A stretch of DNA of 64,000 bases from Helicobacteraceae bacterium (GTDB lineage Bacteria; Campylobacterota; Campylobacteria; Campylobacterales; Sulfurimonadaceae), in NCBI GenBank assembly GCA_027038835.1, contig JALWGC010000006.1:1-64000 (forward strand). The letters are read 5' to 3'. The notes under the pieces were generated by a model. That model did no database searches, was not told the origin of the DNA, and worked only from the letters and a program-made list of their open reading frames with translations. Shown here piece after piece: positions 27,011 to 30,609 of this stretch. Position 1 is the stretch's first letter; every line of letters starts with the position of its first letter. A program made the position numbers and the translations under genes.

Positions 27011-27205
27011 TTGCCGATAAAACCGAAAAACGAAGTCACGAGAAGTTTGGTCATAGATAAGAAGGTATGGGACGAGGCAATGATGTACGCCAAAAGCCGC
27101 TACAAAATGAGTCTTAGCAAAGTGATAGAAGCCCACCTTGAACAGTGGCTGAAAAACGAGCGCAAAAAGCCGCTCGAGAATGAAAAACAAGGAAGATTTT
27201 TCTAA
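27011..27205 (+). CDS. ribbon-helix-helix (CopG/Arc-like) small protein
   Basis: A 64-residue basic protein with a short strand ('VTRSLVIDKKVWDEAMMYAK') and two helices ('SLSKVIEAHLEQWL'), the ribbon-helix-helix DNA-binding layout of antitoxins and small repressors. The start is TTG, fixed by GGAG at 27001-27004 and the lack of an earlier ATG. It lies 10 nt after the HTH gene and overlaps the convergent hybrid kinase by 4 bp. No toxin partner is visible. Confidence 0.65.
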   Translation: MPIKPKNEVTRSLVIDKKVWDEAMMYAKSRYKMSLSKVIEAHLEQWLKNERKKPLENEKQGRFF

Positions 27206-29544
27206 TCCAAAACCTGAATCGACATCAGTCTTTTTTCTATTTTGGCAAAAGAGATTTCATAGGCAAACGTTTCGTTGCTCTCTTTTGCCGCCGTCTCCAT
27301 TGCATTTGCCTCTTTTTGCACATCTTCTAAACGAAAGTTCCCCGAAGAGCCTTTGATGTTGTGAGCGAGCTTCGCGATAGATTGCAAATCTCTCTTTCGT
27401 ATCGCTTCTTGCAGTTGAGGAAGAATAGCGTCTCTTTTTTTCAAAAACACCCCAAGGAGCATTCCGAGTTCTTCTTCATTTAGTGCCAACTCTTTTAGTA
27501 GTTTGTGTTTCTCAAGCCCGATTAAACGCAGTCCGCTTTTACTTACGGTTTGTGTGTTTTTCGCAACCACGACGTCGATGCTTCTTTTTTGCGACAAGAA
27601 CTTTTTCAAAACGTTTTGAAACTCTTCCAAATCGATAGGTTTGCCTAAAAAATCGTCAAATCCGCTCTTTAGCGTGAACTCTTTGTCCCCTTTTATCACA
27701 TTCGCACTTACGGCACATATGGGAGTTTTCACCAAAGTATGTTGACGCTCGAAAGAGCGAATGGCTCGCAGCGCTTGCGTGCCGTCCATCCTTGGCATCT
27801 GTTCATCCATCAAAAGTAAGTCGTAGCGGTTTTTCTTGTACAACTCCACCGCTTCTTTACCATCCTCTGCGACATCACATTCAATGCCGAATTTAGCGAG
27901 AAAAACACACATAAGCTCTCTGTTTGCTTCATTATCATCGGCAACAAGTACTTTAGCATCGAAGCGTATTTGGTTGAAATCGCCAAAAGAGCTTTGTTTT
28001 CGCTCTACATCCATCGAAGCGGTATCGATAGCTTCCAGCGGTATCTTCACACCGAATCTACTTCCAAGACCGTAAATCGATTCGACGAAAATCTCGCCTC
28101 CCATCTGTTTTGCGAGCTGATAGGAGATAGAAAGCCCTAGACCCGTACCTGCATACACTCCGTTTTCTTGCTTTACCTGCATAAAAGCGTGAAAGATGTT
28201 TTGTAGATTTTCCTTTTTTATCCCTATACCGTTGTCGGTAACGTCAACTTCAAGCACTCCATCTTCGTACGAGACGCTATAGACTATTTTCCCCTCTTGC
28301 GAGGTAAATTTGACGGCATTGCTCAAAAAATTCGAAACTATCTGCTTGATACGTAAAATATCCCCATAGAGTATTTTTGGCATATTTTCATCGAAACGGG
28401 ATTCGATATGTATCTGTTTTTCGAGCGCCGATGCCTTGAAAAGTTCAAGCACGTTTTCCAGTTCTTCGTAAACGGAAAACTTCCTCGGTTCTATGACGAA
28501 TTCACCGCTTCTGATTTTGGAAAAATCGAGTATATCGTTGATGATACCAAGCAGATTTTCACCGCTACTTGCGATAACTTGGAGATATTTTTTGTGAACC
28601 GTGTCTTTTTCTTCATCCAAAAGAAGCGAAACGAAACCGAGTATGGCATTAAGCGGCGTACGGATTTCATGGGACATGTTGGAGAGAAAGTACTCTTTGG
28701 CTTCCGAAGCTTTGACCGCTTCTATACGCGCATCTATGAGCGTCGTCACGTCATATGCGATGACCATATATTCGATGTCGTTTTCGTAAGGGTTGAAAAT
28801 TCGCAGTATCGTCACTTGCAAATAAAAATACCCACCCTCTTTTTTTCTATTTTTTACGATCCCCTGATAGATACCGTTTTGTTCTATCTCGCTCCATATG
28901 TTCTCGCACCTCTCTTTTTGTGTTTCGTCGTAGCACAAAAAGTCGTAAGGTTTGCCTATGATTTCATCCGCATCGTATCCGCTAAGCTCCAAAAGCTTAC
29001 GATTGACATAATTGACATTTTGGGAAGAGTCGAGTTTATATACCAACGAGCTTTCATCTATCGCTTTTTTATATTCGCTCAAAAGCTCCATATTTTTGAT
29101 GATTTCTTGCTCTTTTGCATAAATGGTATCGCTGTAGTATTGCAAGATAGAAGAGAAGTTCCGATCGAAAATATGCGTTATGGCGTTGAAAACGTCTTGG
29201 GAAGCGAAATCGTTTTCGAAGCTGAAGTCTATCATGGAGCGTTTGAAATGGGTGCAAATCTCAAAAAGCTCTTGGGAGGAGATATCGACATCTTTGAGAA
29301 AATGCAAAAACTGCTCCATCACGGGACATTGACCTATTGTAACCTCTTCGGCTATCACTCTCATAAAATAATCGAACACTCCGTTTGCAAAACGCGTAAT
29401 GAAAAAGTTTTTCTCTATGGAGTGTTTTATAAAAATTTTCTCAACCGGGAAAAACGATACCCACTCTACTACTATCTCTTCTTTGGCGTTTTGAAATTTC
29501 TCCCAATAAGGCTGAAGTGCTTTTACATAATGTTTATCTTTCAT
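27202..29544 (-). CDS. cytosolic hybrid histidine kinase (PAS-HisKA-HATPase-REC-HPt)
   Basis: A 780-residue sensor kinase with no TM segment. Residues 1-150 form an all-helical domain (possibly a globin-like or novel sensor), then a PAS domain (about 155-275), HisKA with phospho-His292 ('FLSNMSHEIRTPLNA'), HATPase with 'DNGIGI' and 'GTGLGLSI' (about 395-505), a receiver with Asp580 ('LLLMDEQMPRMDG') and a C-terminal HPt with His728 ('LAHNIKGSSGN'). All phosphorelay residues are present. It starts 9 nt after the pseudo-deformylase membrane gene, downstream of sqr, suggesting sulfide- or redox-linked sensing. The final output regulator is not encoded here. Confidence 0.92.
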   Translation of the reverse strand: MKDKHYVKALQPYWEKFQNAKEEIVVEWVSFFPVEKIFIKHSIEKNFFITRFANGVFDYFMRVIAEEVTIGQCPVMEQFLHFLKDVDISSQELFEICTHFKRSMIDFSFENDFASQDVFNAITHIFDRNFSSILQYYSDTIYAKEQEIIKNMELLSEYKKAIDESSLVYKLDSSQNVNYVNRKLLELSGYDADEIIGKPYDFLCYDETQKERCENIWSEIEQNGIYQGIVKNRKKEGGYFYLQVTILRIFNPYENDIEYMVIAYDVTTLIDARIEAVKASEAKEYFLSNMSHEIRTPLNAILGFVSLLLDEEKDTVHKKYLQVIASSGENLLGIINDILDFSKIRSGEFVIEPRKFSVYEELENVLELFKASALEKQIHIESRFDENMPKILYGDILRIKQIVSNFLSNAVKFTSQEGKIVYSVSYEDGVLEVDVTDNGIGIKKENLQNIFHAFMQVKQENGVYAGTGLGLSISYQLAKQMGGEIFVESIYGLGSRFGVKIPLEAIDTASMDVERKQSSFGDFNQIRFDAKVLVADDNEANRELMCVFLAKFGIECDVAEDGKEAVELYKKNRYDLLLMDEQMPRMDGTQALRAIRSFERQHTLVKTPICAVSANVIKGDKEFTLKSGFDDFLGKPIDLEEFQNVLKKFLSQKRSIDVVVAKNTQTVSKSGLRLIGLEKHKLLKELALNEEELGMLLGVFLKKRDAILPQLQEAIRKRDLQSIAKLAHNIKGSSGNFRLEDVQKEANAMETAAKESNETFAYEISFAKIEKRLMSIQVLD

Positions 29545-29553
29545 ACAAGTATA

Positions 29554-30360
29554 TTACATAAAGTAATATGAAAGCAACATTATAACGGTCAATTTAACCA
29601 GTGAAATAGCTACGCTTCCTATAAAATTGCCCACTTGACAACTTGTACATTGCTTATAGATATGCCCTTCGTAAAGCCCGTAAAAAAAGTATGCTATGTT
29701 CAAACCGACTACACCAAAAGAGCTATAAAGCTGAACGTTCCACAACGTTTCTTTCAACGTATCGGAAACGAAAAAAGAAACGATGAAATTTACAATCATC
29801 AATGCAGTCAGTATATTCGCCCCAAGCATGAATTTATCGCGAACGAACGTTGTCGGACACACCCCTCCTACCGCTATATCGCTTTTGCCACCCAATTTCT
29901 CTTCAAAACGCTTTTTTTCTTCTGCGGAGAGTTTCGTCAAGAAATTACCACCGAACGTATAATCCACTTTACGCTGAATCACACGTGCGAGCTTCCCTTT
30001 TGCTTGTAGCGACTTGTCGTTACCCTTTCTGTCTTGATATACGACCGAAATATCGTTATAGCGTGCTACTTGAGCGCTAAGTCCGGGAAAATACGCCGTA
30101 CTCTCTTCTTCTACGGTTTTATCGCTATGGCGGATAATGCGCGGATTGACAAGTTCTATAAAATCCCCGTTTTCATCTTTGACTACGACGACATTGAAGT
30201 AGTTACCTATTTGAAATGCCGCAAGCCCATCTAAGTTGTTTTCTTTGATAGTATCTTTAAGATCGTCCAGCAAAGAAAACAACTCTTCGTCGAATTTTCT
30301 GACATTGACACCGAATTCAAGACTGGGTTGCTGTGGATATGTGATAATTTCGCGTACCAT
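29554..30360 (-). CDS. catalytically dead peptide-deformylase domain fused to a membrane domain
   Basis: A 268-residue protein. Residues 1-140 align with peptide deformylase: 'LDGLAAFQ' (43-50, motif GxGLAAxQ with Gln50 kept), 'LVNPRII', then 'EESTAYFPG' (85-93) where EGCLSxPG should be, and 'LARVIQRKVDY' (124-134) where QHEIDH should be. The metal Cys is Thr88, both metal His are Arg130 and Tyr134, and the catalytic Glu is Lys131, so it cannot be an active metal deformylase. The rest has three TM segments (about 177-197, 210-229, 246-267) with a CxxC (238-241) between the last two. It lies downstream of sqr and the 52-residue gene, 9 nt before the hybrid kinase. I infer a membrane sensor or ligand-binding module. 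Confidence 0.8.
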   Translation of the reverse strand: MVREIITYPQQPSLEFGVNVRKFDEELFSLLDDLKDTIKENNLDGLAAFQIGNYFNVVVVKDENGDFIELVNPRIIRHSDKTVEEESTAYFPGLSAQVARYNDISVVYQDRKGNDKSLQAKGKLARVIQRKVDYTFGGNFLTKLSAEEKKRFEEKLGGKSDIAVGGVCPTTFVRDKFMLGANILTALMIVNFIVSFFVSDTLKETLWNVQLYSSFGVVGLNIAYFFYGLYEGHIYKQCTSCQVGNFIGSVAISLVKLTVIMLLSYYFM

Positions 30361-30414: not shown

Positions 30415-30435
30415 ATCCGCACCTAAAGTGCGGAT
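30415..30435. terminator. stem-loop between the microprotein and pseudo-deformylase genes
   Basis: ATCCGCAC (30415-30422) and GTGCGGAT (30428-30435) form a perfect 8-bp stem with a 5-nt loop. No T-tract follows on the minus strand, so partial termination or mRNA processing that lowers expression of the two downstream genes relative to sqr is more likely than full termination. Confidence 0.5.
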
Positions 30436-30450
30436 AGGCTCGAATAGTTT

Positions 30451-30609
30451 TTAGTGGCTTTTGCCAACGACGATGATCATTTTGATGTTGATCACGACAA
30501 ATCGAATGAACTGCCAAATAAGGCAAGTTCTAAAAAAACGGGCTGTTTTCCCCGGAATCATAGTTGTGTTGAATTTCTCTTTTGCAAAGTTGAGTTCTTC
30601 TACTTTCAT
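30451..30609 (-). CDS. 52-residue membrane-associated microprotein downstream of sqr
   Basis: A short gene encoding 52 residues, starting at ATG 30609 with AGGAG(A) in front (30613-30620 region) and ending TAA at 30451. Sequence features: a charged N-terminus (MKVEELNFAKEKF), 'MIPGKTARFFRTC' with one Cys (29), and a hydrophobic, amphipathic helix 'LIWQFIRFVVINIKMIIVV' ending in GKSH. It is likely membrane-bound with a basic collar. It lies 25 nt after the sqr stop in the same operon. Function unknown; position suggests a partner of SQR or of the downstream membrane protein. Confidence 0.7.
   Translation of the reverse strand: MKVEELNFAKEKFNTTMIPGKTARFFRTCLIWQFIRFVVINIKMIIVVGKSH

Follow-up and report, generated by a model that had tools for sequence, protein, structure and literature searches.

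Why should a protein resembling peptide deformylase (PDF) be built into the membrane and encoded next to a sulfide-oxidizing enzyme? The question is raised by an ORF in the window analyzed here, the 64,000-nucleotide stretch (positions 1 to 64,000) of contig JALWGC010000006.1 from a Helicobacteraceae bacterium (assembly GCA_027038835.1). An earlier note on this DNA had described the product, which we call PDFX, as a deformylase-like domain devoid of catalytic residues, joined to a three-helix membrane domain with a CxxC motif, and had suggested that the fold was reused in a sulfide-oxidation context, either as a sensor or as an anchor presenting a redox-active CxxC. Upon re-reading of the window, the ORF, its strand, its length, and all of the residues named (Q50, T88, R130, K131, Y134, and C238xxC241) proved correct. 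Two features were absent from that note, namely a 52-aa ORF and a third conserved cysteine, C168 (Table 1).

TABLE 1 Features of the PDFX locus, in window coordinates
Feature	Coordinates	Strand	Basis or remarks
SQR-like flavoprotein, 489 aa	30635..32104	(-)	FAD-binding fold; SQR cysteines C145, C183, and C417 all kept
Overlooked 52-aa ORF, one amphipathic/transmembrane helix, ends KSH	30451..30609	(-)	No Pfam match
Stem-loop between small ORF and PDFX	30415..30435	(-)	Structure recurs across loci, few with T-run
Pseudo-peptide-deformylase membrane protein (PDFX)	29554..30360	(-)	268 aa
PDF-fold domain (residues 2-148), no metal ligand and no catalytic Glu	29917..30357	(-)	Pfam PF01327; Foldseek to 2ew5
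Thr88 replacing metal Cys	30097..30099	(-)	T in 106/127, D/S/N in 21/127
R130-K131-V-D133-Y134 replacing HExDH	29959..29973	(-)	127-member and 60-sequence alignments
Cys168 immediately ahead of TM1	29857..29859	(-)	Alignment
PDFX membrane domain, predicted helices 174-197, 200-234, and 236-267	29560..29841	(-)	Model and charge bias
C238-T-S-C241, predicted cytosolic end of TM3	29638..29649	(-)	Both Cys in 127/127
Hybrid histidine kinase (PAS, HisKA, HATPase, REC, Hpt)	27202..29544	(-)	Neighbor mainly in the window's own family

RESULTS

PDFX has a deformylase fold and lacks the deformylase active site

The sole Pfam match in PDFX is peptide deformylase (E value of 3e-29), and its score against the NCBIfam deformylase equivalog TIGR00079, 73.5 bits, falls below the cutoff of 103.95. 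An AlphaFold2 model computed from 60 sequences (mean pLDDT of 85) shows a PDF-like domain plus three long helices, the last of which begins with the CxxC; the arrangement of the domains is uncertain, since the pTM is 0.58. When the model was compared to the PDB with Foldseek, deformylases accounted for 50/50 of the matches listed, the best being the H. pylori PDF (2ew5; TM score of 0.85 by target length, E value of 1.4e-13). The PDF fold that the earlier note had read from the letters was thus recovered by structure prediction.

PDFX shares with Def (PF01327, TIGR00079; H. pylori PDF 2ew5) the fold and the scaffold residues Q50, E86, R100, Q129, and D133. Unlike Def, it is membrane anchored, carries a CxxC, forms a separate clade, and is devoid of the metal Cys, the catalytic Glu, and the second His; two further positions are altered, the first Gly of motif 1 (position 43) and, in EGCLS, the Leu. 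In our alignment of 127 PDFX homologues, which spans several Campylobacterales families, the metal Cys of EGCLS is replaced by T, D, S, or N in 127/127 members, the catalytic Glu and the second His of HExxH occur in 0/127, and a His is found at position 130 in 3/127. We judge from this loss of residues that PDFX is probably a catalytically dead PDF paralogue. A check for an active def elsewhere in the host genome revealed an intact gene (G000:C4:13298-13756, with GIGLAAIQ, EGCLS, and QHEMDH), and the window gene is therefore not the cell's deformylase.

The charges of PDFX are positive ahead of TM1 and in the TM2-TM3 loop and negative in the TM1-TM2 loop, a positive-inside bias from which the PDF domain, C168, and the CxxC are predicted to lie inside the cell, at the membrane surface. 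The C terminus is predicted to be outside. In DsbB/VKOR-type membrane proteins, too, a CxxC lies where a TM helix ends, next to a quinone enzyme; we regard this as a resemblance only, as PDFX differs from them by its three TM helices and its predicted cytosolic CxxC, and no sequence match to them was found.

PDFX forms a monophyletic family under purifying selection

A first search yielded full-length PDFX homologues in 20/41 genomes, the window's own included, and a scan of named genomes gave 209 relatives, the best 80 of the 209 belonging nearly all to Sulfurimonas and unclassified relatives. PDFX is present in 80/249 genomes of the window's order (families labeled f1, f4, f6, f7, f9, f17, f18, and f22), and its matches were confined to this order in a phylum-wide sample of 298 genomes. 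The PDFX family is monophyletic and stands apart from true Def, the split between 55 sampled PDFX and 11 true Def sequences having a support of 100.

C238, C241, E86, R100, and D133 are invariant across the 127 aligned sequences, and E231 and Q242, beside the CxxC, are nearly so. In a second alignment (n = 60), T88, R130, K131, and Y134 are invariant, which suggests that the old active site was rebuilt and is not drifting. In f18 and f22 genomes, T88 is replaced by D or S and Y134 by M or L, so the pocket varies more than the CxxC does. The dN/dS ratio was 0.06 to 0.14 in 13 close PDFX pairs. A functionless, decaying copy of def could account for the loss of every catalytic residue and for a frameshift in the copy of a Sulfurovum mangrovi plasmid, but the reading frame is open and full length in nearly all genomes examined, and the dN/dS values, the invariant CxxC, and the overall conservation rule decay out; we give it hardly any credence. 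The proposal that the fold was reused after catalysis was lost has thus held: the substitutions and the CxxC are kept among the homologues, which form a single clade under purifying selection, and none of the 127 has the catalytic set.

The only annotated record that we found, that of the S. mangrovi plasmid, carries the whole gene unit described below, labeled "FAD-dependent oxidoreductase," "hypothetical protein" (the small gene), and "peptide deformylase" (PDFX, in two pieces). The frameshifted gene (L193:7805-8620), annotated there as two deformylase genes, may be truly broken or may reflect a sequencing error. As PDFX is mislabeled "peptide deformylase," genomes that carry it seem to have two def genes; such database labels mislead and conceal the probable function of PDFX. 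Our search of the open-access literature, outside which most subscription papers lie, returned nothing relevant on deformylase in Sulfurimonas, deformylase pseudoenzymes, or deformylase-like proteins.

PDFX is encoded with a sulfide:quinone reductase and a small membrane protein

Clustering of the genes around 119 PDFX loci revealed a single constant neighbor, the 489-aa flavoprotein resembling sulfide:quinone reductase (SQR), which is encoded directly upstream of PDFX and on the same strand in 86/119 loci. The recurrent unit, which is new here, consists of the SQR-like flavoprotein, the 52-aa membrane protein, and PDFX as the last gene. The genes flanking it vary, with 22 families upstream and 22 downstream, which rules out simple synteny inertia. 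SQR was found in 80/80 genomes with PDFX versus 56/169 without it (Fisher P value of 3e-28, shared ancestry being ignored). The sulfide-oxidation context put forward in the earlier note is borne out, the PDFX gene belonging with an SQR.

Among solved structures, the window's SQR comes closest to the Aquifex aeolicus type I enzyme (3hyv, E value of 3.7e-41), and what we take to be the three functional cysteines of the Aquifex protein align with C145, C183, and C417. NCBIfam gave only a weak type III match for this gene, and an AlphaFold model built from 8 close sequences had a pLDDT of 47 and was set aside. We think that the window's SQR is of type IV, an assignment that draws on reports from Sulfurimonas while the closest solved structure is of type I, because 3hyv is the best match and the type IV SQR, reported in all sequenced Sulfurimonas species, groups with type I (PMC4584964, PMC7952632). 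What sets the window-type SQR apart from the described types I/IV is the small membrane protein that consistently comes after it, a protein of which we found no description. At L169:2930-4600 and L172:2668-4335, another, divergent SQR-like gene occurs with an altered small ORF that lacks the KSH end; in L169, the divergent gene is followed by a protein resembling, by eye, a cytochrome b-type membrane subunit.

The gap between SQR and PDFX measures 194 to 563 bp and contains the small ORF, whose product in the window is MKVEELNFAKEKFNTTMIPGKTARFFRTCLIWQFIRFVVINIKMIIVVGKSH, in 86/86 loci. Where SQR has no adjacent PDFX, a recognizable small ORF still follows it in 19/20 loci fetched, and the pair also occurs on plasmids of the alphaproteobacterium Marivivens and the gammaproteobacterium Thiodictyon, with no PDFX nearby. 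Since the pair exists without PDFX, even in these classes, SQR and the small protein probably constitute a wider unit to which PDFX is an addition, and the membrane protein of ~50 to 60 aa is a candidate general SQR accessory. In the alpha- and gammaproteobacterial loci (L194:5423-5581 and L195:5507-5665), it is annotated only as hypothetical.

The stem-loop that separates the small ORF from PDFX has a mean z score of -4.0 over 84 loci relative to mononucleotide shuffles. Of 86 loci, 65 gave one clean hairpin, and only 8% of those hairpins have a T-run, which excludes a standard terminator. Similar hairpins follow the small ORF where PDFX is absent. The stem-loop may be where the SQR transcript ends, or it may reduce the expression of PDFX, and it argues against PDFX being a fixed 1:1 subunit.

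Unlinked copies have other neighbors

Thirty-two PDFX members have no adjoining SQR. Many of these adjoin AhpD/CMD-like, MerR-like, DsrE-like, or thioredoxin-like genes, and others adjoin unrelated genes (recR, ribonucleotide reductase); no small ORF of the SQR-unit type was identified beside them. Thioredoxin-like, Lcl-domain, DsrE-like, and CMD/AhpD-like genes were seen next to the unlinked copies at L097:7147-7955, L100:3035-3478, and L102:7012-7539. C168 is present in 88/88 SQR-linked PDFX proteins and lost in 5/32 unlinked ones; one clade combines its loss with unlinking, so C168 is dispensable there.

DISCUSSION

As PDFX is usually encoded right after a sulfide-oxidizing enzyme, its role probably concerns the handling of sulfur or redox chemistry. 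We propose that its gene arose through a single early duplication of PDF in the Campylobacterales, followed by fusion to the three-helix membrane domain, and that it was retained as one SQR's accessory partner. The cysteines would accept sulfane sulfur from the SQR product, or be oxidized by it to a disulfide, and pass either on to cytosolic thiol proteins, and the rebuilt, cationic pocket (R130, K131, Y134, T88, and Q50) would bind an anionic ligand such as polysulfide or dock a peptide. Our favored, if unproven, reading, with a probability of about 0.38, is that PDFX serves SQR as a thiol/sulfur relay tethered to the membrane and facing the cytosol. In its favor, we count the invariant C238/C241, C168 in linked copies, the linkage and co-occurrence with SQR, the dN/dS values, the PDF fold, the charge bias, the SQR cysteines, and the CMD/AhpD-like, DsrE-like, and thioredoxin-like neighbors of unlinked paralogues. 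Against it stand the many genomes with SQR and no adjacent PDFX, including the Marivivens and Thiodictyon plasmids, the loss of C168 in an unlinked clade, the pocket changes in f18/f22, the stem-loop ahead of PDFX, and the unlinked copies beside unrelated genes. The anchor presenting a redox-active CxxC, as suggested earlier, would fit the invariant CxxC, the third cysteine, and the neighbors. A more ambitious version, in which a retired translation enzyme has become the membrane partner of SQR and passes sulfane sulfur to the cytosol through its dead pocket and juxtamembrane cysteines, within a new SQR-small protein-PDFX complex of vent and sediment Campylobacterota, is at best tentative.

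The same residues could serve otherwise. C168, C238, C241, and perhaps E231, all juxtamembrane, might bind Zn, Fe, or an Fe-S cluster and make PDFX a membrane subunit with a structural or electron-transfer role, possibly on the quinone side of SQR. The three cysteines are indeed predicted to sit at the same face of the membrane in every SQR-linked copy, and E231 and Q242 hardly vary, but the CxxC outlasts the loss of C168, SQRs are monotopic enzymes that do not require such a subunit, and a stem-loop lies between the genes; we consider a metal site unlikely. The PDF fold persists, with Q50 and many scaffold residues, and a small hydrophobic protein is always encoded ahead of SQR-linked PDFX; both would suit a membrane receptor or assembly factor with a dead pocket that still recognizes peptides starting with (formyl-)Met, such as those of the small protein or SQR, and assists in their placement at the membrane. 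The changes at Gly43 and at the Leu of EGCLS, the frequent SQR-small ORF pairs without PDFX, and the unlinked paralogues with no such ORF identified beside them make this quite unlikely.

The ligand or peptide sensor suggested in the earlier note gained neither support nor contradiction here. The histidine kinase bears on a more specific sensor reading, whereby PDFX would sense quinone, sulfide, or peptides and signal to the adjacent kinase. The kinase lies 9 bp downstream of PDFX in the window and adjoins PDFX in about half of the surveyed loci, but it is missing from the loci shown for other families, and it comes after SQR and the small ORF in loci that lack PDFX, too. A dedicated PDFX sensor-kinase pair is unlikely for these reasons, and we regard signaling from PDFX to this kinase as improbable. 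The kinase's own sensor region (residues 1-160) matched no Pfam family.

PDFX is carried by sulfur-oxidizing relatives of Campylobacter. The way in which the various SQRs pass on their sulfur, and the reason that Sulfurimonas retains more than one, have been called unresolved (PMC4584964). The conserved partner and the small protein that adjoin the most constant Sulfurimonas SQR are two genes to knock out. PDFX itself offers a clear case of a dead protein-maturation enzyme that is under selection and has been relocated to the membrane.
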